Below are positions 11,800-28,235 of a stretch of 32,537 nucleotides of DNA, piece by piece. The first letter of the stretch is position 1. Every line of letters begins with the position of its first letter. The notes under the pieces were generated by a model that ran no database searches, was not told where the DNA came from, and saw only the letters and a list, made by a program, of their open reading frames with translations. The stretch lies in NCBI GenBank assembly GCA_945907245.1, contig CAMDTB010000036.1, forward strand, positions 1 through 32,537, in the 5' to 3' direction. The DNA comes from Rhizobium sp. Q54. GTDB lineage: Bacteria > Pseudomonadota > Alphaproteobacteria > SMXS01. A program made the position numbers and the translations under genes.

Positions 11800-13182
11800 T
11801 CAGTCGGCGACGTACTTCATCAGCGTCTCGTGCACCCGGCGGATGCGTGACTCCTGGTAGCTCGACAGGGTGGCCTTGCCCTTCCTGCTCGTGCGCATGC
11901 CTTCCTGCTGCCAGCGCATGATGCTGGTGTCCTGGTCGTAGACCTTGGCGACGAAGGGATCGAGTCCCGGCACCGTTGAAAAGCTCTCGTCCTCGCGGAT
12001 GCGGACCGGCTCGGCGGGTTCGGGGCGGCCGTCCTCGGGACGGAACGGGCGCAGTCGGAAGGACTCCATCACCGAACGGTTCGGGTCGTTGCCCAGCGGC
12101 CAGAACACGGTGATCGAGGCGGCGGCGACGCCCGCGTTTACCATCACGTTGGGGAACAGGTTGTATTTCAGCGAGTCGATGATCTCGGCATCGGACAGGT
12201 CCGACAGGTCGATCCCGTATTTGTCCGCATAGTTCTGGCGCATGGTCTTTGCGAGCACGATGCGCGCCGTCTCGCCCTCCGGCACCATCATCCGGTTGCC
12301 GCCCTTGGCGGTGCTGGGATCGCCCAGGAACATGTTGTCGAGCAGCTCCTGCTCGCTGCGAGGCTCCGCGGTCGGGCTGGTGACGCCCATGGCCGACAGG
12401 TCGCGGCTGACATGGTCGCCGAACACGTCGTGCTGCAGGTTCCAGTCGCCGACCACGGTGGTCAGCTCCGGATGCACTACCGGCGTGTGATAGGCCTCCA
12501 TGAAGGCCTCCAGCACGACCTTCCAGTTGCAGGCCAGCTCCTTGCGGAAGTGAATGAAGGTGTACCAGTTGCTCAGGTCCCGCCTGGCGAAGTGCTCGGG
12601 CAGCACTTCCAGATACTCGAGCAGCGGCCGGGCGTTCTCGTCCATGTTGATGAACACGAAGCTGTTCCACACCTCGACCTTCACCTGCGGCAGCCGGTTG
12701 GCGTCGTAGTCCAGGTGCTTGAACTCCCAGGCGCAGGGCACTTCGGTCAAGGTGCCGTCCAGGGTCCAGGTCCAGCCGTGGAACGGGCACTGCAGCTCGC
12801 CCGTCCAGCCACTGGTGCCCGACGGCTTCAGCTTGGTGCCGCGGTGCAGGCAGGAATTGTAGTAGCCGCGGATGCCGTCCTCGGTGCGGATGACGACGAT
12901 CGACCAGTCGCCGATATCGTGCACCCAGTAGTCGCCGACCTCGGGAACATGCTCCTCGCGGCAGACGAACTGCCACACGCGCGGCCACATGCGCTCCATC
13001 TCCAGGTCGAAGAACGCCTGCGAGGTGAATTGGTCCAGCGGAATGTCGTCGGTGGGCTGCGGCGGGTTGGACTTCAGCGCCAGCAGGTCCGCCACCGGCG
13101 TGCTGTCGCGGGCGATGATGTCCTGGTAGCTCTCGAACGCCGGCGCGTCCGCCTTGCTGAACTTCTTGATGCGCTCGTTCAT
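11800..13182 (-). CDS. Rieske non-haem iron oxygenase alpha subunit, paralog 1
   Basis: The protein has 460 aa. The N-terminal Rieske domain has Cys111-x-His113 (CLHRG) and Cys132-x-x-His135 (CPFHGW) for the [2Fe-2S] cluster. The C-terminal catalytic domain has the NWK motif at 219-221 and the mononuclear-iron histidines His232 and His237 (EAYHTPVVHPEL); the acidic third ligand cannot be fixed by eye. Enzymes of this family insert oxygen into aromatic or alicyclic substrates and need electrons from a ferredoxin/reductase, neither encoded in the window. GGGGAC precedes ATG 13182. It is divergent from a TetR gene across a palindrome, so probably repressed by it. It is the most diverged of the three paralogs. 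Confidence 0.93.
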   Translation of the reverse strand: MNERIKKFSKADAPAFESYQDIIARDSTPVADLLALKSNPPQPTDDIPLDQFTSQAFFDLEMERMWPRVWQFVCREEHVPEVGDYWVHDIGDWSIVVIRTEDGIRGYYNSCLHRGTKLKPSGTSGWTGELQCPFHGWTWTLDGTLTEVPCAWEFKHLDYDANRLPQVKVEVWNSFVFINMDENARPLLEYLEVLPEHFARRDLSNWYTFIHFRKELACNWKVVLEAFMEAYHTPVVHPELTTVVGDWNLQHDVFGDHVSRDLSAMGVTSPTAEPRSEQELLDNMFLGDPSTAKGGNRMMVPEGETARIVLAKTMRQNYADKYGIDLSDLSDAEIIDSLKYNLFPNVMVNAGVAAASITVFWPLGNDPNRSVMESFRLRPFRPEDGRPEPAEPVRIREDESFSTVPGLDPFVAKVYDQDTSIMRWQQEGMRTSRKGKATLSSYQESRIRRVHETLMKYVAD

Positions 13183-13202
13183 TGCGTTCGTCCCCGTGAT
13201 CT

Positions 13203-13220
13203 ATTAGACGTTTGTCTAAT
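13203..13220. promoter_or_regulatory. TetR-type operator palindrome
   Basis: ATTAGAC-GTTT-GTCTAAT has perfect seven-base arms. Its near edge is 20 bases from the Rieske 1 start (13182) and 27 bases from the chosen TetR start (13248). TTAGAC-N4-GTCTAA is a familiar kind of TetR-family operator. Its position in the only space between the divergent genes implies autoregulation of the TetR gene and control of Rieske 1. Confidence 0.8.
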
Positions 13221-13247
13221 ACTGAAGCGGCAGTCAGGCAAGCCTTC

Positions 13248-13904
13248 ATGTCCACGGTGCGCAGGCGGGATGCGGCGGCGACGCGCGAGAAGATCCTCGA
13301 CGCGGCCGAGGAGCTGTTCGCCGAGCGCGGCTATCATGGCGTCTCCATTCGCGAAATCGTCGCGCTGGCCGGTGTCGATCTGGCGCTGGTGCATTACTAT
13401 TTCGGGCCGAAGGACGCGCTGTTCCGCGAAGTGATCGAGCGCCGCGGCGCCGGGCACGCGGCCGACCACATGGCGGCGCTGGACAAGCTGCGGGCCGAGT
13501 CGGACGGCCCGCCCGGCGTCGCCGCGCTGATCCGCGCCTTCTGTGCGCCGATGTTCGAGAAAATGGGCCGCGGTCCGCAATGGCGGAACTACATGCACCT
13601 GCTGGCGCACCGGGCACTGGCCCGCCAGAGCGAGGTGTTCCTGGCGCCCTACGAAAAGACCTTCGAGCCGATGACCCGCGCCTTCATCGCCGCGTTCCGC
13701 GAGGCGCTGCCCGGGGCGGATGAGAAGAACCTGTTCCATGCCGTCTATTTCATGCACGGCGCCATCGTCTACGCGCTGGCCGAAACCGGCGCCATCGAAC
13801 GGCTGTCCGACGGCAAGATGGATTCCTCGGATTTCGATACGTTGCTGGACCGGTTCGTGCCGTTCTTCACGGCCGGGTTCATGGCGCTGGCGAAGCCGAC
13901 TTAG
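13248..13904 (+). CDS. TetR-family transcriptional regulator
   Basis: The protein has 218 aa from ATG 13248. A TTG start at 13212 would lie within the operator and is less likely. The N-terminal DNA-binding domain reads REKILDAAEELFAERGYHGV then IREIVALAGVDLALVHYYFG with PKDALFREVI, a textbook TetR helix-turn-helix (residues about 8-55). The C-terminal ligand domain (about 75-215) is not assignable to an effector. It is divergent from Rieske 1 with a palindromic operator between, suggesting induction by an oxygenase substrate or product. The gene converges on a short minus-strand gene across a long inverted repeat. Confidence 0.93.
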   Translation: MSTVRRRDAAATREKILDAAEELFAERGYHGVSIREIVALAGVDLALVHYYFGPKDALFREVIERRGAGHAADHMAALDKLRAESDGPPGVAALIRAFCAPMFEKMGRGPQWRNYMHLLAHRALARQSEVFLAPYEKTFEPMTRAFIAAFREALPGADEKNLFHAVYFMHGAIVYALAETGAIERLSDGKMDSSDFDTLLDRFVPFFTAGFMALAKPT

Positions 13905-13940
13905 GGGCCGCTCCTGTTGATGCAGTCATCATCTATATCC

Positions 13941-14010
13941 GTGTCCCTGAGCTTGTCGAAGGGTCCTGCATCAATGCCTGTGCGAGGCCCTTCGACAAGC
14001 TCAGGGACAC
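13941..14010. repeat. Long perfect inverted repeat between convergent genes
   Basis: Two 23-base arms (13941-13963 and 13988-14010) are exact reverse complements, with a 24-base loop. Each arm contains CTGAGCTTGTCGAAGGG or its complement CCCTTCGACAAGCTCAG, a sequence widely dispersed as an intergenic palindrome in proteobacterial genomes. It sits between the end of the TetR gene and the end of a small minus-strand gene, so it may act as a two-way terminator, and it is likely a mobile or dispersed repeat copy. Confidence 0.85.
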
Positions 14011-14049
14011 GGTAAAGTTGGCGTATTGCCCACATCGTCGCGGCGCTCT

Positions 14050-14238
14050 TTACCCCTTCAGCAGCGCGACGAAGTCGATCATGTGCGGGTCGGCGTCCTT
14101 GATGTCGCCGTCGATCCAGCGGCCGTTGCCCTTGAACCGGCCGCGCTTGCCCGTCGCCGGGTCATGGACGGCGACGGTGCCGTCGTCCTGCCTGGTGTAG
14201 ATGCGCCCGTCGATGGCGCTGGTGCGCGAAACCGTCAT
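14050..14238 (-). CDS. Small conserved-looking protein of unknown function
   Basis: The protein has 62 aa. It contains SAIDGRIYTRQDDGTVAVHD, GKRGRFKGNGRWIDGD and ends DPHMIDFVALLKG. It looks like a compact beta-rich soluble protein; I do not recognise a family. GGGGGAG lies six bases before the ATG at 14238, a strong reason to accept it. It lies downstream of Rieske 2 on the same strand but is separated from it by a strong hairpin, so it may be expressed by readthrough or from its own promoter. Its proximity suggests, but does not prove, a link to the oxygenase. Confidence 0.6.
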   Translation of the reverse strand: MTVSRTSAIDGRIYTRQDDGTVAVHDPATGKRGRFKGNGRWIDGDIKDADPHMIDFVALLKG

Positions 14239-14256
14239 GCCGCTCCCCCGAAACGA

Positions 14257-14280
14257 AGGACCCGGCCGAAGCCGGGTCCT
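14257..14280 (-). terminator. Strong stem-loop downstream of Rieske gene 2
   Basis: AGGACCCGGC and GCCGGGTCCT form a perfect ten-base-pair stem. On the minus strand the loop is TTCG, an extra-stable tetraloop, and the following bases are TCGTTTCGG. It starts 11 bases beyond the Rieske 2 stop, so it is a plausible intrinsic or attenuating terminator before the 62-aa gene. Confidence 0.7.
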
Positions 14281-14291
14281 GGAACCGCGCC

Positions 14292-15686
14292 TTACTCGGC
14301 GTTGATGTATTCGTCGATCTTCCAGTGCAGGTGACGCACCCGGCTTTCCTGGTAGTTGGCCAGGGTCACGCCCTTCTTCAGGGACTTCATGCCCTTCTGC
14401 ACCATGGGCATGTTGGTCATGTCCTGCTGGAACACGGCCGCCAGCCCGCCGATCTCGTCCTCGGCGACGATCCATTCCTGGTCCTCGCCCAGCATGCGCA
14501 TAGGCGCCGGGTCGGGACGCGGGCCGTTCAGGTCGTAATCGCTGAGGATGAACACCTCCATGATCGCCGAGTCCGGGTTCAGCCCGTCGGGCCGGAAGCG
14601 GTAGGTGATGTTGGTGCCCATGCCGCCCCACGGGAAAAAGTTGGGAAACACGAAATACTGGATGGCGTCGAGCATCTCGCTGTCGGTGGCGTCGGAATAG
14701 TCGCGGTTCTTGGCCGCGCCCACCTGCTTGCGGCGCATCTCGGCCATGTACTGGCGCGCCGTCATGCCCTCGGGCACCTTGAATTCGTTCATGGCCATGC
14801 CCATGCGGTAGGCGCGCGGCGTCATCGAGTCGACGATTGCCTGCTCCTCGATCGGCGGGATATGCGGGCTCTGCACGCCCATGGCGGTGATCATGCGGTT
14901 GTAGTTCAGCTTGGGGTCGACGTCGTACTGGGTGTTGGCGTCGGCCGTGGACGGCATGATCTGCGGATGGGTGGCGACCACGTGGAAGCTCTCGGCGAAC
15001 GCCTCGATGCCGACCTTCCAGTTCATGTCCACCCGCTTGGCGATGTGGTTCATGACGTACTTGTTCTTGAAGTCCCAGCGCTCGAACTCCGGGATCAGGT
15101 CGCCCAGGAAGCTCTCCAGGCTCTCGGCGTCGTCATCCATGTTGATGAACACGAAGCCGCCCCAGGTGCCGACCTTGACTTCCGGCAGGGCGTATTCGGC
15201 GTCGACGATGTGCGGGAAATCCCAGCGGCAGGGGAAATCGCTCAGCGTGCCGTCGATGGTCCAGGTGAAGCCGTGGAAGGTGCAGCGCAGCTCGGTGGCG
15301 TTGCCGTGGGTGCCTTCCGGCTTCAACTGGTTGCCGCGGTGCAGGCAGGCGTTCCAGTAGGCCTTGATGGTCTCGGGCGCGGTGCGGATGACGAGGAACG
15401 ACCACTCGCCGATCTCGTAGGTGGTGAAGTCGCCGACTTCCGGGATGTGCTCCTCGCGGCAGGCGAATTGCCAGACCTTGGTCCACATCTTGTCCATCTC
15501 GAGCCGGGCGAATTCCGGGTCGGTCCAGCGCGACGTCGGCAGCCGGTCCGAGCCCATGTGGACATTGAAGTTCTTGCGCAGCACCGGCGGCACGGGAAGC
15601 TTCTCGCGGTCGAGCAGCTCCTGCACGGAAATGGCTTCCGAGCGGGCCTCGCCTGGCTTCAGCGTCTTGGGGTTCTCGATGTTCAT
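14292..15686 (-). CDS. Rieske non-haem iron oxygenase alpha subunit, paralog 2
   Basis: The protein has 464 aa. The Rieske cluster ligands are Cys114, His116 (CLHRG), Cys135 and His138 (CTFHGF); the catalytic domain has NWK at 222-224 and His235/His240 (ESFHVVATHPQ). CTFHGF has Thr and Phe where paralogs have Pro and Trp. It is close to paralog 3 in ligand numbering and shares its KVGTWGGFVFIN and N-terminal PGEAR motifs. GAGGAG precedes ATG 15686. The frame remains open upstream, and that extension contains a second motif resembling PGEARSEA, but has no good start. Redox partners are not in the window. The substrate is unknown. Confidence 0.93.
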   Translation of the reverse strand: MNIENPKTLKPGEARSEAISVQELLDREKLPVPPVLRKNFNVHMGSDRLPTSRWTDPEFARLEMDKMWTKVWQFACREEHIPEVGDFTTYEIGEWSFLVIRTAPETIKAYWNACLHRGNQLKPEGTHGNATELRCTFHGFTWTIDGTLSDFPCRWDFPHIVDAEYALPEVKVGTWGGFVFINMDDDAESLESFLGDLIPEFERWDFKNKYVMNHIAKRVDMNWKVGIEAFAESFHVVATHPQIMPSTADANTQYDVDPKLNYNRMITAMGVQSPHIPPIEEQAIVDSMTPRAYRMGMAMNEFKVPEGMTARQYMAEMRRKQVGAAKNRDYSDATDSEMLDAIQYFVFPNFFPWGGMGTNITYRFRPDGLNPDSAIMEVFILSDYDLNGPRPDPAPMRMLGEDQEWIVAEDEIGGLAAVFQQDMTNMPMVQKGMKSLKKGVTLANYQESRVRHLHWKIDEYINAE

Positions 15687-15857
15687 GGCTTTGCTCCTCG
15701 TTTCGCCCGGCTGGATGGTGCGCATCCTGCGCGCTGCTGAAAACCTGTCATGTTTGTTCAGCGGCCGCAACCGCGCGCGGCATACTTTAATCGCAGATGA
15801 CTTTTACATACAGGGATTCTCTCACCCCGGCCATAAAAATGGTTTTTGTTCCGATTT

Positions 15858-17243
15858 TCAACCCGCCAGATATTTGTCCAGGGTCTGGTGAATGTGCCGC
15901 ACCCGGGCTTCCTGGTAGTTGCCCAGGGTGATGCCCGGCTTGCGCGCCGCCTTCAGGCCGATCTGCAGCCGCTCCAGGTTCGACGTGTCCTGATCGAACA
16001 CCGGACCGAGTCCGCCCAGCTCCGGCGCGTCCGAGAACATCTCGTGCTCGCCCAGGATGTGCAGCGGCGCCGGCTCGGGGCGCGGGCCGTCTTTCGGGCA
16101 GGGCCGCAGGATCAGGATGTCCATGATCGAGCTGTCCGGGTCGTTGCCGTTGGGCCGGAAGCGGTAGACCAGCGGCACGGTGATGTTCGCCCAGGGATGG
16201 AAGTTGGGGAACAGGAAGTACTCGATGGTGTCGAGCGTCTCGCTGATCGTCAGGTGCGACAGGTCGGTGCCCAGTGCCGGACCGATCGAGTCCTGCACGC
16301 CTTTCGCGATCACCTGCCGCGCGGTCATGCCGTCGGGCACCCTCAGCATGTTGCCTTCGCCGGCGTGGCCCAGATCCATCAACATGGCGTCGGCGATCAC
16401 CTGCTGGCTGACCTCGCCCAGATGCGGGCTGGCGACGGCCTGGGTGTTGAGCTGGCGGCTGACATGGTCGCCCCAGATGTCGTACTGGGAATTGGCGTCG
16501 CCCAGATAGGCCAGCGCCTGCGGGTGCGTCGCCAGCACGTGGTAGGATTCCATGAAGGCTTCCTGCGTCACCTTCCAGTTGCAGCGGATCACCTTGCGGA
16601 CATTGGCGGCGATGGCGCGGTCCTCCAGCGGCCAGAGCTTCATCTGCTCGGGCAGCACGCCGAGATAGTCCTCGAAGGGCTGGCAGTTCTCGTCGGGGTT
16701 GATGAACACGAAACCGCCCCAGGTGCCCACCTTCACCTCCGGCAGGCGGAACGCCTCGTCGGTGACCTTCGGGAAATCCCAGCGGCAGGGGATTTCCTTC
16801 AGCGACCCGTCCAGATTCCAGGTCCAGCCATGGAACGGGCAGCGGAACTGTGTGGCCGATCCCGCCGAGTCGGACGGCCGCAGCTGGGTGCCGCGGTGCA
16901 GGCACGAATTGACATAGGCCTTGATGTCGCCAGCCTCGGTGCGCACCACCAGGAACGAGAAATCGGCGATACCGTATTCCATGTAGTCGCCCGGCTCCGC
17001 GATCTCCTCCTCGCGGCAGGCGAATTGCCAGACCTTCGACCACATCCTGGCCACTTCCAGGTCATGGAAGGCGCGGCTGGTGTAGCGCTCGGTGGGAATG
17101 TCGGCGTCGCCGAGGAAGCGGTAGGACTGCTCGCGCAGCACGGCGGGCACGTCCTGGCCGTCTGCGGCGATGATGTCCTGGGCGCTCGGGCCGGGACAGC
17201 GCGCCTCGCCGGGCTGCAATGACGTCGTCGTCTGTACGTTCAT
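15858..17243 (-). CDS. Rieske non-haem iron oxygenase alpha subunit, paralog 3
   Basis: The protein has 461 aa. The Rieske ligands are Cys114, His116, Cys135 and His138 (CPFHGW). The catalytic domain has NWK at 222-224 and His235/His240 (ESYHVLATHPQ). GGGGAGAC lies before ATG 17243; an ATG eight codons upstream is less well placed. It is divergent from the crotonase gene (99 bases between starts), so may share control with it. The 171 bases between it and Rieske 2 hold no clear terminator, but no tight coupling either. As with the others, no beta subunit, ferredoxin or reductase is adjacent, so it probably draws on shared electron carriers. Confidence 0.93.
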   Translation of the reverse strand: MNVQTTTSLQPGEARCPGPSAQDIIAADGQDVPAVLREQSYRFLGDADIPTERYTSRAFHDLEVARMWSKVWQFACREEEIAEPGDYMEYGIADFSFLVVRTEAGDIKAYVNSCLHRGTQLRPSDSAGSATQFRCPFHGWTWNLDGSLKEIPCRWDFPKVTDEAFRLPEVKVGTWGGFVFINPDENCQPFEDYLGVLPEQMKLWPLEDRAIAANVRKVIRCNWKVTQEAFMESYHVLATHPQALAYLGDANSQYDIWGDHVSRQLNTQAVASPHLGEVSQQVIADAMLMDLGHAGEGNMLRVPDGMTARQVIAKGVQDSIGPALGTDLSHLTISETLDTIEYFLFPNFHPWANITVPLVYRFRPNGNDPDSSIMDILILRPCPKDGPRPEPAPLHILGEHEMFSDAPELGGLGPVFDQDTSNLERLQIGLKAARKPGITLGNYQEARVRHIHQTLDKYLAG

Positions 17244-17342
17244 CGTGTCTCCCCTTACCGATGACATGCGCCGGTTTTACGCCAACAATGCGGAGCGCGC
17301 GACTCAAAGAGGCAAGAGGCTGGCGCGGCAAAGGGGAGACAG

Positions 17343-18544: not shown

Positions 18545-18693
18545 TCAGCGCGGCGGATCGTCGTCGTCATCCAGGATTCGTGCCGCGGCGCCGTCCAGGT
18601 CGTCGTACTGGCCGGATTTCAGCGACCACAGGAAGGCCGCGAGCCCGAGGCCGCCCAGGAACAGCGCGCAGGGAATGAGGACCAGCAGGTTCG

Positions 18694-18697
<4 letters not shown>
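18545..18697 (-). CDS. ccoS: cbb3 oxidase maturation protein CcoS
   Basis: The protein has 50 aa: one transmembrane helix (LVLIPCALFLGGLGLAAFLW) followed by SLKSGQYDDLDG, the conserved CcoS motif (normally W-x-x-x-x-GQ-[FY]-D-D), and an acidic tail. CcoS is needed to insert cofactors (haem b and copper) into the cbb3 catalytic subunit. Its ATG overlaps the ccoI stop (ATGA). It is the last gene of the operon. Confidence 0.93.
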
Positions 18698-20958
<2,261 letters not shown>

Positions 20959-20959
20959 C

Positions 20960-21439
20960 TCACTCTCCGGCCCAGAGGCGGAATGCGCGCTGGTAGTCGC
21001 GTCCGTGGGAGTCATGCACCGCCACGTCGGCGTTCCACGTTCCCTTCGGCAGGGCCAGCGCCATGGCATAGCTGCCGCCGGTCGATGGCCTCAACACGAC
21101 GCGGCGGTCCTCGCCCTCGTGGGTCGGCCGCCGTAGCGTGATCTCGACGCTCATGCCCGACAGCGGCGCGCCGTCGCGGTCGCTCAGGGTGAATTTCAGG
21201 CTGCCACCCGCATAGCCCAGCGTGCTCCGCCATCCCAGCGCCTGCTGCCGATGGGCGCGCGCAAGGTCCTCGTTGAAGTGCTGGCTGGCCACATAGCTGT
21301 TCTTTACGACAAGGCCGGTCCAGCTGGTGCTCGCCAGGATCGCCAGGGTCGCGTTCACGCCGATGATGACGCCGAAGAACCCCAGCATCACCGCCAGCAT
21401 GCGGCGGCCGGTGAAAGGTTTTGGGACGGTGCCGGTCAT
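20960..21439 (-). CDS. ccoH: cbb3 assembly protein CcoH (FixH)
   Basis: The protein has 159 aa: one transmembrane segment (about residues 13-36, MLAVMLGFFGVIIGVNATLA) then a periplasmic FixH domain. LVVKNSYVASQHFNE and the R-Q-Q-A-L-G-W segment are the FixH signature. CcoH stays bound to the mature oxidase and stabilises it. GAGGGAG precedes the ATG at 21439. Its location between ccoG and ccoI fits the usual order. Confidence 0.95.
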   Translation of the reverse strand: MTGTVPKPFTGRRMLAVMLGFFGVIIGVNATLAILASTSWTGLVVKNSYVASQHFNEDLARAHRQQALGWRSTLGYAGGSLKFTLSDRDGAPLSGMSVEITLRRPTHEGEDRRVVLRPSTGGSYAMALALPKGTWNADVAVHDSHGRDYQRAFRLWAGE

Positions 21440-21455: not shown

Positions 21456-22952
21456 TCACGGACGTGCGAACATGGCGTCGTAGATGGCGGACTCGCCGCC
21501 GCCGCGTTCCTCGACGATGAAGCGCAGCGGCGTCTCGGCTGCATCGAGGTCCTGGGGAGACGCGCTGACATACACCTTCAGCACGCGCACATCGTCCCTC
21601 GGAACCGCCACCAGCAGGCGCGAGGCGCGGGCGGCGTCGGAACCAGCGGTGGTCATCAGCGCGCCGTCGATGCCCTCGGTGCGCAGGGTGAAGTCGCGCG
21701 GGATGGTCTTCATGTTGAGAATCTTGATGGTGTAGCCGTTGCGGATGGTGCCGTCGGCGAGCCGGACCGCCAGCGGGTTGCGGTCATGCAGCACATTGAC
21801 GTCGAGCCGCTCCCGGGTCAGCAGAGCGAACAGCATGCCCAGCCCGACGAGCGACCACAGGGTGACATAGATGATCGTCCGCGGCCGGATCAGCGAGCGC
21901 AGCGAGGTGTGGACCGGCGCTTCGCGCGTGCTGGCGTTGTAGTCCTTCAGGGTCGCGTAGGAGATCAGGCCGCGAGGCTTGCCGACCTTGTCCATCACGC
22001 CGTTGCAGGCGTCGATGCACAGCGCGCAGGTGATGCACTCCAGCTGCTGGCCGTCGCGGATGTCGATGCCCATCGGGCAGACGACGACGCACTGGTTGCA
22101 GTCGACGCAGTCGCCGCCAGCCTGGCCGGTTTCCTGCTGGACCTTCTGGTGCCGCCCGCGCGGTTCGCCGCGCCAGTCGTTGTAGGTCACGACCAGCGAA
22201 TCCTCGTCCAGCATCGCCGCCTGGATGCGCGGCCACGGGCACATATAGGTGCAGACCTGCTCGCGCATCAGCCCGCCGAACAAATAGGTCGTGGCGGTGA
22301 GGACGGCGATGGTGATCCAGGCGATCGGCGGTGCGTCGAAATGGGCGAGCCGGGCCGCGAGCGTCGGCGCGTCGGCGAAATAGAAGATCCACGCGCCGCC
22401 CGTCGCCACGCCGGTCAGTATCCAGAGCGCATGCTTGGAGGCGCGCTTGCGCAGCTTGTCGAAGGTCCAGGGCGCGCTGTCGAGCTTGATGCGCGCCGCC
22501 CGGTCGCCTTCGATCCAGCGTTCGATCACCAGGAACAGGTCGACCCAGACGGTCTGCGGGCACGCATAGCCGCACCAGGCCCGGCCGACGGTCGAGGTGA
22601 GCAGGAACAGGCCGATTCCGGCCATGATCAGCAAGCCGGCGATATAGTAGAATTCCTGCGGCCAGATCTCGATGAAGAAGAAGTAGAAGCGGCGGGCCGG
22701 CATGTCGATCAGCACCGCCTGGTCCGGCGCGCCGGCGCCACGGTCCCAGCGAATCCACGGCGTCAGATAGTAGATCGCCAGGGTGACGGCCATGATCTGC
22801 CATTTCAGCGACCGGAAGAAGCCGTGGACGCGCTTCGGGAAGATCTTGACGCGCGCCTTGTACAGCGACCGGGTCTCCCGCTTGTTCACGGGGGTGACGC
22901 TGGCGCGCTCCACCTCAAGCGACGGCGGGATATCCGGCCTGTGCAACATCAT
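21456..22952 (-). CDS. ccoG: cbb3 accessory ferredoxin-like membrane protein CcoG (FixG)
   Basis: The protein has 498 aa from ATG 22952 (ATG 22949 is directly after it). Membrane segments fill the N-terminal half. Two [4Fe-4S] motifs follow: CVDCNQCVVVCP and CITCALCIDAC. An immunoglobulin-like periplasmic tail (DUF3526/FixG-C type) ends the protein. CcoG reduces Cu(II) for the oxidase-maturation pathway. The start lies ten bases after ccoP; the ribosome-binding site is weak, so translational coupling is likely. All key cysteines are present. Confidence 0.94.
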   Translation of the reverse strand: MMLHRPDIPPSLEVERASVTPVNKRETRSLYKARVKIFPKRVHGFFRSLKWQIMAVTLAIYYLTPWIRWDRGAGAPDQAVLIDMPARRFYFFFIEIWPQEFYYIAGLLIMAGIGLFLLTSTVGRAWCGYACPQTVWVDLFLVIERWIEGDRAARIKLDSAPWTFDKLRKRASKHALWILTGVATGGAWIFYFADAPTLAARLAHFDAPPIAWITIAVLTATTYLFGGLMREQVCTYMCPWPRIQAAMLDEDSLVVTYNDWRGEPRGRHQKVQQETGQAGGDCVDCNQCVVVCPMGIDIRDGQQLECITCALCIDACNGVMDKVGKPRGLISYATLKDYNASTREAPVHTSLRSLIRPRTIIYVTLWSLVGLGMLFALLTRERLDVNVLHDRNPLAVRLADGTIRNGYTIKILNMKTIPRDFTLRTEGIDGALMTTAGSDAARASRLLVAVPRDDVRVLKVYVSASPQDLDAAETPLRFIVEERGGGESAIYDAMFARP

Positions 22953-22962
22953 GGCGGGTCCG

Positions 22963-23886
22963 TCAGGGCATCGCGGCGGCCGGTGCTTCGACCGACGCCG
23001 CGGGGGCGGGTTTCGACGCCTCGCCGCCGCCCAGCGAATGGACGTAGACGGTGAGCTGCTTGATCGTCGCTTCGTCCAGCTTGTCGCCCCACGCCGGCAT
23101 GACGCCGCGCCGCGCGTTGGTGATGGTTTCGACGATGGTCGCTCGATCGCCGCCAAACAGCCAGATCGCATCGCGCAGCGACGGCGCGCCCTGGGCGCGG
23201 TCGCCGCCGCCGTTGGCGCCGTGGCACACGCTGCATTGCTCGGCGAAGATCGTCGCGCCGCGCCCGGCGGCCGCGGCGTCGTGGTCCTCGCCGGACAACG
23301 ACAGCACATAGTCCGCCGTATCGGCGATCTGCGCGCGTTCCAGGAGACCGTCGCGGCCGAAGGCGGGCATCTGGGAATTGCGCGTGTTCTCATCCGCCTC
23401 GTGGCGCACGCCGTGCACCAGCGTATGGTGAATGTCGTCCAGCGTGCCTCCCCACAGCCATTCGTCGTCATTGAGGTTGGGATAGCCCTTCGCGCCCGCC
23501 GCTCCCGCGCCATGGCACTGGACGCAGTTGACCGCGAACGCCGACCGGCCGCCGGCATTGGCGAATTCCAGCAGTGCCGGATCGCCGCGGATCTCGTCGA
23601 GCGGCAGGGTGCGGATCTTCTCCAGGTTCCCCGACTGGGCCTGCTGCGCCTGTTGCACAGACTGGGCCAGGTTGGCGCGGCTCGAATAGCCGAGCAGGCC
23701 TTGTGTCGCGCCGTCGATCAGCGGCCAGGCGGGGAACAGGATCGTGTAGACCAGCGCCCAGGCGATCGTGATGTAGAACGTCCAGATCCACCACCGCGGC
23801 AGCGGGTTGTTCAGCTCCTTGATACCGTCCCACTCGTGGCCGGTGGTCTCGACGCCGCTCATTTCGTCATGTTCAGGCTGGGCCAC
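22963..23886 (-). CDS. ccoP: cbb3 oxidase dihaem cytochrome c subunit CcoP
   Basis: The protein has 307 aa. The N-terminal helix follows LNNPLPRWWIWTFYITI, the conserved CcoP anchor. Two haem c sites are Cys121-x-x-Cys124-His125 (CVQCH) and Cys218-x-x-Cys221-His222 (CSVCH), with likely axial methionines in SQMPAF and VMPAW. It receives electrons from soluble cytochrome c and passes them to CcoO and CcoN. The tail is Ala/Pro-rich. It starts only three bases past the ccoQ stop. Confidence 0.96.
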   Translation of the reverse strand: MAQPEHDEMSGVETTGHEWDGIKELNNPLPRWWIWTFYITIAWALVYTILFPAWPLIDGATQGLLGYSSRANLAQSVQQAQQAQSGNLEKIRTLPLDEIRGDPALLEFANAGGRSAFAVNCVQCHGAGAAGAKGYPNLNDDEWLWGGTLDDIHHTLVHGVRHEADENTRNSQMPAFGRDGLLERAQIADTADYVLSLSGEDHDAAAAGRGATIFAEQCSVCHGANGGGDRAQGAPSLRDAIWLFGGDRATIVETITNARRGVMPAWGDKLDEATIKQLTVYVHSLGGGEASKPAPAASVEAPAAAMP

Positions 23887-23889
23887 GGC

Positions 23890-24039
23890 TCACTCCTCAT
23901 CCAACGGGATGCGGGCGGCGCGGTCGTAGAAGGCCTTGGCGCCCGGGCGGAACAGGAATGCGACGGCGGCCACGAAGACCACCATCAGGTAAACCAGACC
24001 CCAGCTGTCCGCGAGGTGGCGGAATTGGTGATAGTCCAT
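23890..24039 (-). CDS. ccoQ: cbb3 oxidase small subunit CcoQ (FixQ)
   Basis: The protein has 49 aa, starting MDYHQFRHLADSWGLVYLM; one transmembrane helix (LVYLMVVFVAAVAFLF) and the tail FRPGAKAFYDRAA follow. That order, helix then F-R-P-G-x-K, is typical of CcoQ. It stabilises the ccoP interaction in the complex. The site is AGGAGAGGATC before the ATG. It is too short for most gene finders, but is in the exact place and frame. Confidence 0.93.
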   Translation of the reverse strand: MDYHQFRHLADSWGLVYLMVVFVAAVAFLFRPGAKAFYDRAARIPLDEE

Positions 24040-24048
24040 GATCCTCTC

Positions 24049-24777
24049 CTACCGCCGGTTGGCTTCGTCGTTGTAGGCATTGAAGTCGACCAGTGTGCCG
24101 AGCATCTGCAGGTAGGCGACCACCGCGTCCATTTCGGTCACCTGGCCGGGATCGCCGTCGAAATCCCGGATCACCGCCTTCGGGTAGCGTGCCTGCAGCG
24201 CCTCGGCGCCGGAGTCGTCCGGGTTGGCCTGGGCTTTCAGGTCGGCCAGGGCGTTCTCGACCATGGCCTCGGTATAGGGCACGCCGACCTTGAGATTGGC
24301 GCGCAGATGGTCGGCGATGTCGTCGGTGCGCAGCGGCGTCTCCGCCAGGAACGGATAGCCCGGCATCACCGACTCCGGCACCACCGAACGCGGCGCTTTC
24401 AGGTGCTCCACATGCCATTCGTCGGAATACTTGCCGCCGACGCGGGCAAGGTCCGGGCCGGTGCGCTTGGAGCCCCACTGGAACGGATGGTCATACATAC
24501 TCTCGGCGGCGAGGCTGTAGTGGCCGTAGCGTTCGACCTCGTCGCGGAAAGGCCGGATCATCTGGCTGTGGCAGGTGTAGCAGCCTTCGCGGATATAGAT
24601 GCCGCGTCCCGCCAGTTCGAGTGGGGTATAGGGACGCATGCCCTGTGTCTTCTCGATGGTGTTCTGGAGATAGAACAGCGGGGCGATCTCGACGATGCCG
24701 CCAATGGACACCGCGATGAAGCTCAGCACGAGCAGCAACGTGGCGTTCTTCTCGATGATGGCATGGCTGAACTTCAT
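24049..24777 (-). CDS. ccoO: cbb3 oxidase monohaem cytochrome c subunit CcoO
   Basis: The protein has 242 aa. An N-terminal membrane anchor ([20 protein letters not shown]) is followed by haem c site Cys66-x-x-Cys69-His70 in [16 protein letters not shown], the invariant CcoO signature. [13 protein letters not shown] carries the expected axial Met. CcoO sits between CcoP and CcoN in the electron path. The start codon lies one base after the ccoN stop. Confidence 0.96.
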
Positions 24778-24778
24778 G

Positions 24779-26389
24779 TCACGCTCCCTGGACGGCCGGG
24801 GCGGCGAAGCCCATGGGAATCTCGCGCCGCTGATGCCCCATGATCGTGCGGGCGATGTTGTAGGCCATGATCAAAGCGCCCAGCAGGTAGAGCCCGCCGC
24901 CGGCGGCCCGGATCAGGTAGAACGGGTGCATGGCGGCGACGGTCTCGGCGAAGCTGTACTGCAGGAAGCCGAGATTGTCGTAGGCGCGCCACATCAGGCC
25001 CTGCATGATGCCGCTGACCCACATGGAGGCGGCGTAGAGGACGATGCCGATGGTCGCCAGCCAGAAGTGCCAGTTGACCAGGCGGGCGCTGTACAGGCCC
25101 TGGCGGTCCCACAGTTTCGGCGCCAGGAAATAGACCGCGCCGAAGCTGATCATGCCGACCCAGCCCAGCGCGCCCGAATGCACGTGGCCGATGGTCCAGT
25201 CGGTATAGTGGCTGAGCGAGTTGACCGACTTGATCGACATCATCGGCCCCTCGAAGGTGCTCATGCCGTAGAAGGCGATGGCCATGACCATCATGCGCAG
25301 CACCGGATCGGTGCGCAGCTTGTCCCACGCACCCGACAGGGTCATCAGGCCGTTGATCATGCCGCCCCAGCTGGGCATCCACAGCATGATGGAGAACACC
25401 ATGCCCAGCGTCTGCGCCCAGTCGGGCAGCGCGGTATAGTGCAGGTGATGGGGTCCGGCCCAGATGTAGAGGAAGATCAGCGCCCAGAAATGGATGATCG
25501 ACAGCCGGTAGGAGTAGATCGGCCGGTCCGCCTGCTTGGGCACGAAGTAGTACATCATGCCCAGGAAGCCCGCGGTCAGGAAGAAGCCGACCGCGTTATG
25601 GCCGTACCACCACTGGGTCAGCGCATCCTGGACCCCCGAGAACAGCGAATAGCTCTTGGCGCCCAGCAGCGAGACCGGCATGGACAGGTTGTTGACCACG
25701 TGCAGCATCGCGATGGTCACGATGAACGACAGGTAGAACCAGTTTGCGACGTAGATATGCGGTTCCTTGCGCCGGAACAGCGTGCCCAGGAATACCGCCA
25801 GGTACGCCACCCAGACGATGGTCAGCCAAAGGTCCACGTACCATTCGGGCTCGGCGTATTCCTTGCTCTGGGTGATGCCCAGCAGGTAGCCGGTGGCCGC
25901 CAGCACGATGAACAGCTGGTAGCCCCAGAACACGAACCACGCGGTGTTGCCCAGCGCCAGCCGCGCGCCGGTGGTCCGCTGCACCACGTAGAAGCTGGTG
26001 GCGATCAGCGCGTTGCCGCCGAAGGCGAAGACCACCGCCGAGGTGTGCAACGGCCGCAGTCGGCCGAAATTGGTGTATGCCGTATCCAGGTTCAGCGCCG
26101 GGAACGTCAGCTGCAGGGCGATCACCACGCCGACCAGGAAGCCTGCAAGACCCCAGAACATGGTTGCGATCACGCCCGCCTGGATGACGCCGTCCAGGTA
26201 TTTTCCCTTGGCGGGCTTGGGCTTGCCTTCGGGATCGAAGGTGTTGAGGCCGGCGACGATCGCCACCAAGGCCGCGAGCACGACGATCCAGGCATGGATG
26301 GCGAAGTTGGGATCGTGGGTGAGCGAGGCGACGATCACCGCGAACGTCGCCACCAGACCCATGATCACGTAGAAGAATGCGGCACCCAT
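24779..26389 (-). CDS. ccoN: cbb3 oxidase catalytic subunit CcoN
   Basis: The protein has 536 aa with about 14 transmembrane helices. Haem-copper ligands are visible: the low-spin haem His in [13 protein letters not shown], CuB histidines in [10 protein letters not shown] and [11 protein letters not shown], and the haem histidines in [13 protein letters not shown]. It reduces O2 to water at high affinity and pumps protons in low oxygen. ATG 26389 has a modest AAGGA site. The gene is 16 bases downstream of the outer-membrane gene, so it is most simply the second gene of that transcript. Confidence 0.96.
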
Positions 26390-26405
26390 GCCCGGTCGTC
26401 CTTGG

Positions 26406-27281
26406 CTAGAAGGTGATGACGGCGTCGGCGTAGAGACGCCAACTGGTGATGTCCTTGCGGCTGGTGACCGGCATTTCGTATGCCGCGCCCAGCAGAAGGT
26501 TCGGTGCCACGCGGAAACGGGCGCCCGCGGCGACGGTGGCGACGGTGCCGGCATCCGTCGCGCCGAAGTTCACGAGGTCGAAGCCCTCGAACGGAACCGG
26601 CATGCGCGAGCCGTTGTCGATCACCGAGAAAACGTTGAACTCGACCACCGGATAGAACCAGTCGGTCACCGCGTAGTTGGCGGCCAGCGACGCGACCAGC
26701 AGCGAACTGTCCGCGCTGCCGTCGATGGCCATGTTGGCGTTGACGCTGGCCTGGAGCTGCAGGCTGTCAAACTGCTGCAGCGCCGTGACGAACACGTTGA
26801 TGAAGCCGTCGCCATGGCCCTGCAGGCTGATGCCGCCAGTCTTCAGGCTGCCGATCGGCGCCTCGTAGCGCAGGCCGACCGTGACCACGGTGCCGGTCTG
26901 CTCGTTGAGGATCAGGGCATATTTCAGGCCGGCGGCGATGTTGGCGAAGCCATCCTCGTCCGGCAGCACGCCGGCGAAGTGGATATCGGCGTAACCGTCC
27001 TTGGTGGCGATGATCGCCAGCCTGTCGGTCACCGCCAGCCGCGCCTGAACAGCGCCCACATCGACGTTGCCGCCGCCGGTCAGGAACTCGTCGGGGATCT
27101 GATGATGAATGTAGATCGGCCGGATTTCCGTCTTGATCAGCGGGCTCTCGTTGAACAGCGGGTTGCTGACCGACGGGACATAGCGGAGCGGTTCCGCATG
27201 CGCGCCGGTGGAGGCGAGGCACAGCACCGCCGCCAGGGCGATGCCTGCCGTGCCGGTCTTGCCGTTCGTTGTCATGTTCAT
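26406..27281 (-). CDS. Predicted outer-membrane beta-barrel protein leading the cbb3 operon
   Basis: The protein has 291 aa. A signal peptide ([17 protein letters not shown], cleavage after Ala29) is followed by alternating amphipathic strands and a final [12 protein letters not shown], ending in Phe as outer-membrane barrels do. It resembles putative transporters of the phenol meta-pathway (Phenol_MetA_deg-like) family, but I cannot be certain. GGAG precedes ATG 27281, and a perfect FNR/FixK box lies 70 bases upstream. Only 16 bases separate it from ccoN, so it should be co-transcribed. An outer-membrane gene is not part of the classical cco operon. Confidence 0.8.
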
Positions 27282-27635
27282 GTCTTGCTCCGTATCTGCC
27301 CGACACTTCCCTCGCGCAGTCGAGCAATGGTCCCGGACGGGCCACGGAGCCTTGATCGGGATCAACTAGGTGCGGACGACAGGGGCAACCGGTGCGTCAA
27401 AGGCGCAGCGACACGGGCCGCGCCGGCTGTCTTCGGGCTCTTAAGTAATTGGGATACATGTAAAAAAATATCAACGCCGCGCAGTGTGGCCTGCGTGACA
27501 CGCAACTTGTTGCATGGCAGCAATGCATGTTGCGGCGTTCCCGCGGGGCAGGGAGTGCGTGTTTCGTCGGCTTCCATTTTCATTCATGTGGAAAAATCAT
27601 ACGATGCTCGGGTTTTGGACAGCGGGAGACGGGGA
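27282..27635. other. 354-base intergenic region with divergent promoters
   Basis: Besides the anaerobox, the region has an AT-rich patch (27439-27471) and a perfect palindrome TGCGTG-A-CACGCA at 27492-27504. Further on lie TGCAT/ATGCA arms around 27513-27529. These may belong to the promoter of the VOC gene (27636); I see no coding sequence here. Confidence 0.45.
27352..27365. promoter_or_regulatory. FNR/FixK/ANR-type anaerobox
   Basis: TTGATCGGGATCAA is an exact match to TTGAT-N4-ATCAA. It is upstream of the outer-membrane gene, 70 bases from its ATG to the near edge, so a class II position (near -41) leaves a leader of about 35 bases. Activation under low oxygen would fit a cbb3 oxidase operon. 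Confidence 0.9.
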
Positions 27636-28235
27636 ATGGCCGCGCCGAAGAACGAGAAATTCGAGATCATGGGCATCAACCACCTGGCACTGGTGTGCAA
27701 GGACATGAAGCGCACGGTGGAGTTCTATTCGGGCGTCCTCGGCATGCCGCTGATCAAGACCCTCGACCTGCCCTATGGATCGGGCCAGCACTTCTTCTTC
27801 GACATCGGCAACGGCGATTCGCTGGCGTTCTTCTGGTTTCCCGACGCGCCGGACAGCGCGCCGGGTATCACCCATCCGGCCCATCTGATCGGCCGCGGTC
27901 CGATCACCTCGGCGCATGCGTCGATGAATCACCTGGCGTTCAACGTGCCGGCCGAGAAGATCGACGAGTACCAGAAGAAGCTGGAGGCGGCGGGCATCCA
28001 GGTCACGCCGGTCGTCAACCACGACGAGTCGGAGACCCAGGCCAGCATGGAGCTGACGCCGACCACCTTCGTCCGCTCGATCTATTTTCTCGACCCGGAC
28101 GGCATGATGCTGGAGTTCGCGTCGTGGACGCGCGCCATGGGCGCGCCGGGCGATGTCCGCCACGAACCGGCTACCGACGCCGACCGCGCCCGCTACCTGG
28201 CGGTGAAGCCGAAGCTGAAGCAACCGGCCGAATAG
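27636..28235 (+). CDS. VOC-superfamily protein (glyoxalase/dioxygenase fold)
   Basis: The protein has 199 aa. Two beta-alpha-beta-beta-beta modules are visible: GINHLALVCKDMKRTVEFYS at residues 13-32, and the second from MNHLAFNVPAEKID. His16, the His in MNHLAFN and the Glu in MMLEFASW are likely metal ligands, as in glyoxalase I and extradiol dioxygenases. The reaction cannot be inferred. GGGGA precedes ATG 27636. It is divergent from the cbb3 operon across a shared intergenic region. Confidence 0.88.
   Translation: MAAPKNEKFEIMGINHLALVCKDMKRTVEFYSGVLGMPLIKTLDLPYGSGQHFFFDIGNGDSLAFFWFPDAPDSAPGITHPAHLIGRGPITSAHASMNHLAFNVPAEKIDEYQKKLEAAGIQVTPVVNHDESETQASMELTPTTFVRSIYFLDPDGMMLEFASWTRAMGAPGDVRHEPATDADRARYLAVKPKLKQPAE

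Follow-up and report, generated by a model that had tools for sequence, protein, structure and literature searches.

Standard ccoNOQP-GHIS clusters of Alphaproteobacteria carry, upstream of their cbb3 oxidase genes, an anaerobox that is usually found near ccoN. An outer-membrane barrel, OmpW, also sits behind an FNR site and, in some alphaproteobacteria, beside ccoN. The ompW promoter is bound by FnrL in R. sphaeroides and is predicted to belong to the core alphaproteobacterial FNR regulon (PMC2908626). In Sphingopyxis, ompW is divergent to ccoN, and the authors suggest that the same Fnr site may be used (PMC7713065). For Fnr boxes that paper reports class II spacing, in which transcription begins about 41 nt downstream of the centre of the box. 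The protein, an eight-stranded barrel, is presented as a porin that lets small hydrophobic molecules through (PMC12491237). Hydrophobic molecules are also the presumed cargo of the COG4313 channels. These are 12-stranded, with their N-terminus within the barrel; they have been linked to the uptake of hydrophobic compounds, and a lumen plug is described for one of them, Pput2725 (PMC4493636).

The stretch of DNA analysed here as a whole, hereafter the window, comprises 32,537 nt of Rhizobium sp. Q54 (contig CAMDTB010000036.1, assembly GCA_945907245.1). Its minus strand carries ccoN-ccoO-ccoQ-ccoP-ccoG-ccoH-ccoI-ccoS, a cluster that looks complete and has the standard gene set, but its anaerobox precedes an extra gene, coding for an outer-membrane barrel, that is placed ahead of ccoN on the same strand. 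We propose, with moderate confidence, that this gene is under FNR control and specifies a 12-stranded channel through which hydrophobic or amphipathic molecules would pass, OmpW-like in its role, which shares the cco transcript without being a part of the oxidase.

Layout of the locus

The features are listed below in the order in which the minus strand is read. CcoN, CcoO and CcoP were assigned with family models and CcoH/FixH with Pfam, while CcoG, CcoI, CcoQ and CcoS were assigned by eye or by position.

27352–27365, no strand assigned: perfect anaerobox (FNR/FixK type), TTGATCGGGATCAA, the sole perfect TTGAT-N4-ATCAA in the window
26406–27281, minus: outer-membrane beta-barrel gene, 291 aa (ORF, translation, fold model, fold matches and homologues)
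27195–27281, minus: signal peptide, residues 1–29 (cleavage after AHA by eye; helix 9–22 in the model)
27129–27194, minus: N-terminal segment before the first strand, residues 30–51 (alignments; first strand from residue 52)
26390–26405, minus: barrel-ccoN gap, 16 bases (AAGGA ahead of the ccoN ATG; free of minus-strand terminator-like sites)
24779–26389, minus: ccoN, cbb3 oxidase subunit I (TIGR00780, 788 bits, cut-off 583)
24049–24777, minus: ccoO, cbb3 oxidase subunit II (TIGR00781, 371 bits, cut-off 201)
23890–24039, minus: ccoQ-like small membrane protein, 49 aa (sequence by eye and cluster position)
22963–23886, minus: ccoP, cbb3 oxidase subunit III (TIGR00782, 373 bits, cut-off 180)
21456–22952, start approximate, minus: ccoG-like ferredoxin-type protein (translation by eye; homologues in L014, L016 and L059)
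20960–21439, start approximate, minus: ccoH/fixH (PF05751, E 1.5e-39)
18694–21069, minus: ccoI-like copper P-type ATPase (translation by eye; homologues in L016, L059 and L067)
18545–18697, minus: ccoS-like small protein (translation by eye)

A preliminary description of this DNA had placed the perfect anaerobox ahead of the barrel gene rather than directly ahead of ccoN, and had counted 16 bases between the two genes. Both points hold, the barrel stop codon occupying 26406–26408 and the ccoN ATG 26387–26389. The same description had read the barrel gene as 26406–27365. That start must be given up because TTG 27365 sits inside the anaerobox itself; the likely start is ATG 27281, which is preceded about 8 nt upstream by GGAG and separated from the box by 70 bases. 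As a finding that would speak against joint expression it had named a separate ccoN promoter, and we see none. A scan of 26200–27700 is devoid of sigma-70-type sites, with the proviso that alphaproteobacterial promoters may not fit such a scan, and neither of its two terminator-like sites is on the minus strand. A box with at most two mismatches is likewise absent from the 400 nt before ccoN, in each of the five host-family loci. The candidate of a hidden ccoN promoter was dropped on these two grounds. Elsewhere on the minus strand of the window, at 11800–17267, three consecutive genes resemble, by eye, those for alpha subunits of Rieske ring-hydroxylating oxygenases.

The protein and its predicted fold

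The signal peptide and the beta-barrel character that had been proposed for the product are both borne out, the former by eye and the latter by an AlphaFold2 model built from 52 sequences (mean pLDDT 87.8, pTM 0.83), in which strands run from residue 52 to the end. The model has 14 strand segments, which we read as 12 strands. Its best structure matches are FapF (5o65; Z 22.6, 233 residues aligned, rmsd 2.7) and the COG4313 channel Pput2725 (4rl8; Z 22.3, 234 aligned, rmsd 2.6). Autotransporter domains form the next group, at Z 18.1, and the copper channel PcoB reaches Z 13.2, as against 22.3 for the COG4313 channel. The barrel is thus predicted to have the 12-stranded COG4313/FapF fold.

Sequence comparison gives less. 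No Pfam family matches the window protein above cut-off, and the PDB yields no sequence relative, either for this protein or by a profile of the barrel family. Within the family, 21/52 members match PF13557 at E ≤0.01 (best E 3.4e-11) and 14/52 match OMP_b-brl at the same threshold, the window protein being among neither. It resembles the COG4313/PF13557 channels (Pput2725, SphA, TcpY) in predicted fold and in having a similar mature length; to their lumen plug corresponds, by sequence position, the segment 30–51 before strand 1, which in the alignments ranks among the most conserved parts of the barrel family. It differs from them in the missing PF13557 match and in its genomic place, a cco operon rather than a catabolic one, with an anaerobox upstream. 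FapF, an amyloid secretion channel, has the same predicted barrel fold, but identity over the aligned residues is 11%, and we recognised no amyloid subunit gene among the neighbours of the barrel. Membership of the OmpW family was considered and rejected: PF03922 finds nothing, and the model has about 12 strands where OmpW, of another sequence family, has eight (PMC12491237). In the literature that was accessible, in part and with few subscription papers, we found no hint of a cco operon that includes a COG4313/PF13557 barrel, and the present barrel apparently represents an undescribed family of low-oxygen channels.

Conservation, distribution and low-oxygen control

In the host family the layout is stable. 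The order box, barrel, gap, ccoN is kept in all five barrel-bearing genomes, with a perfect box before the barrel in each and a gap of 11–19 nt (by eye), so that the adjacency sought by the preliminary description in related genomes is indeed there. Among the ten genomes of the family, barrel and ccoN are both present in five and both absent in five. Identity of the barrel protein across the family is 64–96%, which suggests selection on the protein itself. With this conserved adjacency and an upstream region, anaerobox included, that both genes share, the expression of the barrel together with the oxidase in low oxygen, as first proposed, is well supported on sequence grounds, and a joint low-oxygen transcript would be its natural reading. 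The gene is also, as had been claimed, no standard member of the cco cluster: no barrel was found in the approximately 1.4 kb upstream of ccoN in 20 other alphaproteobacterial regions, hand-picked, mostly as the best rows among the 150/385 genomes over cut-off, and including two barrel-holders. By hand count, 13 of these 20 have a box, with no more than one mismatch, at up to about 200 nt from the likely ccoN start, and including one at −333 raises the number to 14; for two of the box-bearing regions this rests on a start further in than the automatic one.

Beyond the host family, one scan of a collection of genome contigs gave 65 barrel loci, with labels that comprise Alpha- and Gammaproteobacteria, Nitrospinota, Planctomycetota, Lentisphaerota, Deltaproteobacteria or Myxococcota, and others. 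Genes around these relatives were called with a simple length-based caller and many were identified by eye. The 52-row alignment (A2) consists of the window protein and 51 of the 65 loci, near-copies, fragments and L065 having been dropped. No plasmid copy appeared in the collection searched. In two other alphaproteobacterial genomes the barrel copies (L007, L012, L013) are broken by in-frame stops. Within a class sample of 385 alphaproteobacterial genomes, ten have the barrel, two of them as weak or partial matches. CcoN is found in six of these ten and not in the other four, to which the two weak or partial matches belong. In 46 other barrel genomes, to which 46 of the 65 loci led and which served for both the ccoN and the OmpW tests, ccoN is over cut-off in 19 and without any match in ten. 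Beyond the host family, barrel and cco mostly lie well apart. The existence of barrel genomes without ccoN argues that the barrel does not depend on cbb3.

Away from cco, too, the barrel is often behind an anaerobox. When boxes with one mismatch or none are counted in the 300 nt upstream, 19/64 barrels have one, against 11/442 other genes of the same loci (p 1.2e-11), and the difference stays when the cco-linked loci are removed (15/55 barrels vs 7/375 genes, p 5e-10), where it must be added that close relatives were kept as separate rows, so that these p-values overstate independence. The test covered 64 of the 65 barrels (L052 was left out), its starts were guessed for the planctomycete and some other rows, and its control genes include some cco genes. 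Eleven of the 19 barrel boxes, from several branches, begin between −71 and −104 relative to the start codon adopted. For L016 the start adopted here is 45 nt further upstream than the one taken for the same contig (L005) in the comparison of the five host-family loci, which puts the box at −62 here and at −107 there. As 45/64 barrels have no box at this threshold, FNR control is not universal in the family.

The perfect motif occurs seven times in the 3.34 Mb host genome, its reversed-pattern control not at all. Of the six boxes outside the window, one neighbours an fnr-type gene and another precedes a gene that resembles hcp (both by eye); four of the seven adjoin genes that we did not recognise as FNR targets. 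The hcp gene, for hybrid cluster protein, is a usual FNR target, and the box in question (L096, on G000:C47, at 1501) is just upstream of the gene resembling it. Another (L097, on G000:C49, at about 1501) stands between the fnr-type gene and a gene for a Rieske-type oxygenase, while three more (L092–L094, on G000:C27) fall in a stretch of 3.4 kb around a second Rieske-type gene, a hint that FNR controls some of the oxygenases of Rhizobium sp. Q54. HTH_Crp_2 has six matches in the genome, five over cut-off. One Crp-family protein has N-terminal cysteines that, by eye, resemble those of FnrL, and its gene adjoins a perfect box.

The parallel with OmpW can be followed in the class sample. At least 11 of its genomes have OmpW no more than 10 kb from ccoN, five of them at less than 1 kb (one a contig-end fragment), counted by hand among the matches listed. 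In one locus, L118, a perfect box, OmpW and ccoN succeed one another on one strand, with OmpW directly upstream of ccoN. The OmpW-ccoN gap has no box at one mismatch or fewer, and a box-like site with two mismatches is visible there by eye, so that this parallel is imperfect. PF03922 detects no OmpW in the ten genomes of the host family, Rhizobium sp. Q54 included. None of the ten class-sample barrel-holders, three of which are of the host family, has it over cut-off, one giving a weak match below; the class sample as a whole has it in 100/385 genomes. It is found in one of the 46 barrel genomes of several phyla, at least two of which are also in the class sample. Set against about 26%, 0/10 has a p of about 0.05 by hand calculation, and the barrel-holders cluster in few lineages. 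This hints weakly at mutual exclusion and suggests that an unrelated barrel has replaced OmpW; shared ancestry of the barrel-holders could yield the same pattern.

Oxidase linkage and rival explanations

Genes for cbb3 or cbb3-like oxidases are near the barrel in 9/65 loci. Three are in the host family (L014–L016). In the gammaproteobacterial L047 and L059 they are on the same strand, in L064 (Planctomycetota) and L067 (Lentisphaerota) they are divergent, and in L024 and L039 they are cbb3-like, divergent and more distant. On the 52-row tree the linkage label changes five times (four to five in bootstrap), at least three changes being forced. The linkage does recur, in about five lineages, and by a rough hand estimate some 0.3–0.5% of random genes would be so close to cco, which makes chance an unlikely cause. 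Co-transcription of barrel and ccoN is not clear in L059, where a box of one mismatch precedes ccoN itself and the gap contains, by eye, a hairpin resembling a terminator. With 9/65 loci and 0/20 alphaproteobacterial regions, the barrel is not an accessory gene found with cco across bacteria. Haem genes form a further neighbourhood: a hemN-like gene is directly downstream of the barrel in three Lentisphaerota loci (L067, L073, L074), hemA and a globin gene follow it in L055, a globin gene is present in L064 and CbiX in L045. These neighbours fit a low-oxygen regulon and do not single out haem transport. Just past the barrel of L049 (8931–9392) a 153-aa protein has a weak, partial match to haem-copper oxidase subunit I (E 4.5e-5, below cut-off).

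The preliminary description was half right: likely co-expression with the oxidase, as read from sequence, stands, whereas the role in oxidase function, for example in the supply of copper or haem, finds no support. That the barrel directly serves the oxidase by supplying copper, haem or another cofactor now seems unlikely to us. Its operon position and its co-inheritance with ccoN in the host family speak for such a service, as do the linkages in L047, L059, L064, L067, L024 and L039, the tetrapyrrole-related neighbours of some loci (hemN-like, hemA, globin, CbiX) and a pair of histidines on one strand (A2 columns 272 and 276) that 71% and 87% of the 52 members possess. However, in the window protein both residues of the pair are replaced (V196, A200), as they are in the nearest relative. 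Three host-family members (L003, L004, L005) retain the second of them. Conserved metal ligands of the PcoB kind were not found: His59 and His60 of the window protein are common to 42–44% of members, and none of its other histidines or cysteines, nor any methionine past the initial one, is common to more than 17%. The PcoB match is well under that of the COG4313 channel, the best matches being a presumed channel for hydrophobic molecules and FapF, and the barrel occurs in genomes in which ccoN was not found, namely four of the ten class-sample (two of them weak or partial barrel matches) and ten of the 46 other barrel genomes. Finally, hemN, hemA and cco are themselves bound by FnrL in R. sphaeroides (PMC2908626), and because all are FNR targets the shared neighbourhoods can be explained without shared function. 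We regard as very improbable the more specific idea that the family is dedicated to carrying a tetrapyrrole, or some other hydrophobic cofactor, across the outer membrane in low oxygen, and here leads the oxidase operon; its repeated occurrence, in several phyla, next to genes for cbb3, hemN, hemA and globin would then be due to that task.

An uptake channel for a hydrophobic, perhaps aromatic, growth substrate met in low-oxygen habitats, which would simply ride the cco promoter, is an improbable reading too. The uptake of hydrophobic compounds to which COG4313 channels are tied (PMC4493636) would suit it, and so would the three Rieske-oxygenase-like genes seen in the window and, by eye, CoA-ligase and acyl-CoA dehydrogenase neighbours in some relatives. 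The span from the box to the last cco gene contains no catabolic gene, however, and the neighbours of the relatives are varied. The adjacency might instead be an accident of hitch-hiking, in which a barrel gene with its own FNR promoter replaced the promoter of ccoN and was kept for that promoter only. Relatives do have their own anaerobox away from cco, and in most of the other alphaproteobacterial regions the box is near ccoN itself; the conservation of the barrel protein in the host family speaks against this, and we give it very little credence.

We favour, as stated at the outset, an FNR-controlled channel: the barrel is probably an OmpW-like envelope protein of another fold and not a part of the oxidase. 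In the host lineage a channel gene would have been placed, together with its FNR site, ahead of ccoN. As oxygen falls, an FnrL-type regulator on the anaerobox would activate transcription, and a single transcript would bear the channel gene and ccoNOQP-GHIS. The secreted product, a predicted outer-membrane channel of COG4313/FapF fold, would probably offer a passive route to hydrophobic or amphipathic small molecules and, being neither a subunit nor an assembly factor of the oxidase, may adapt the outer membrane to low oxygen as OmpW would in many other alphaproteobacteria. Membership of the FNR regulon, as for OmpW, would explain co-expression without any role in the oxidase. Even so, that the barrel is repeatedly linked to cbb3 or cbb3-like genes, and to genes for haem, could betray a closer tie to the oxidase than this FNR-regulon reading allows.

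With OmpW, an outer-membrane barrel was already part of the alphaproteobacterial low-oxygen response. If the favoured reading is true, a barrel of a different fold has taken the regulatory and genomic position of OmpW in genomes that yield no OmpW match, and the need that both answer would be general. Low-oxygen respiration would then require an outer-membrane route for some hydrophobic compound and, OmpW and this barrel being unrelated, a comparison of their substrates could reveal which compound it is.
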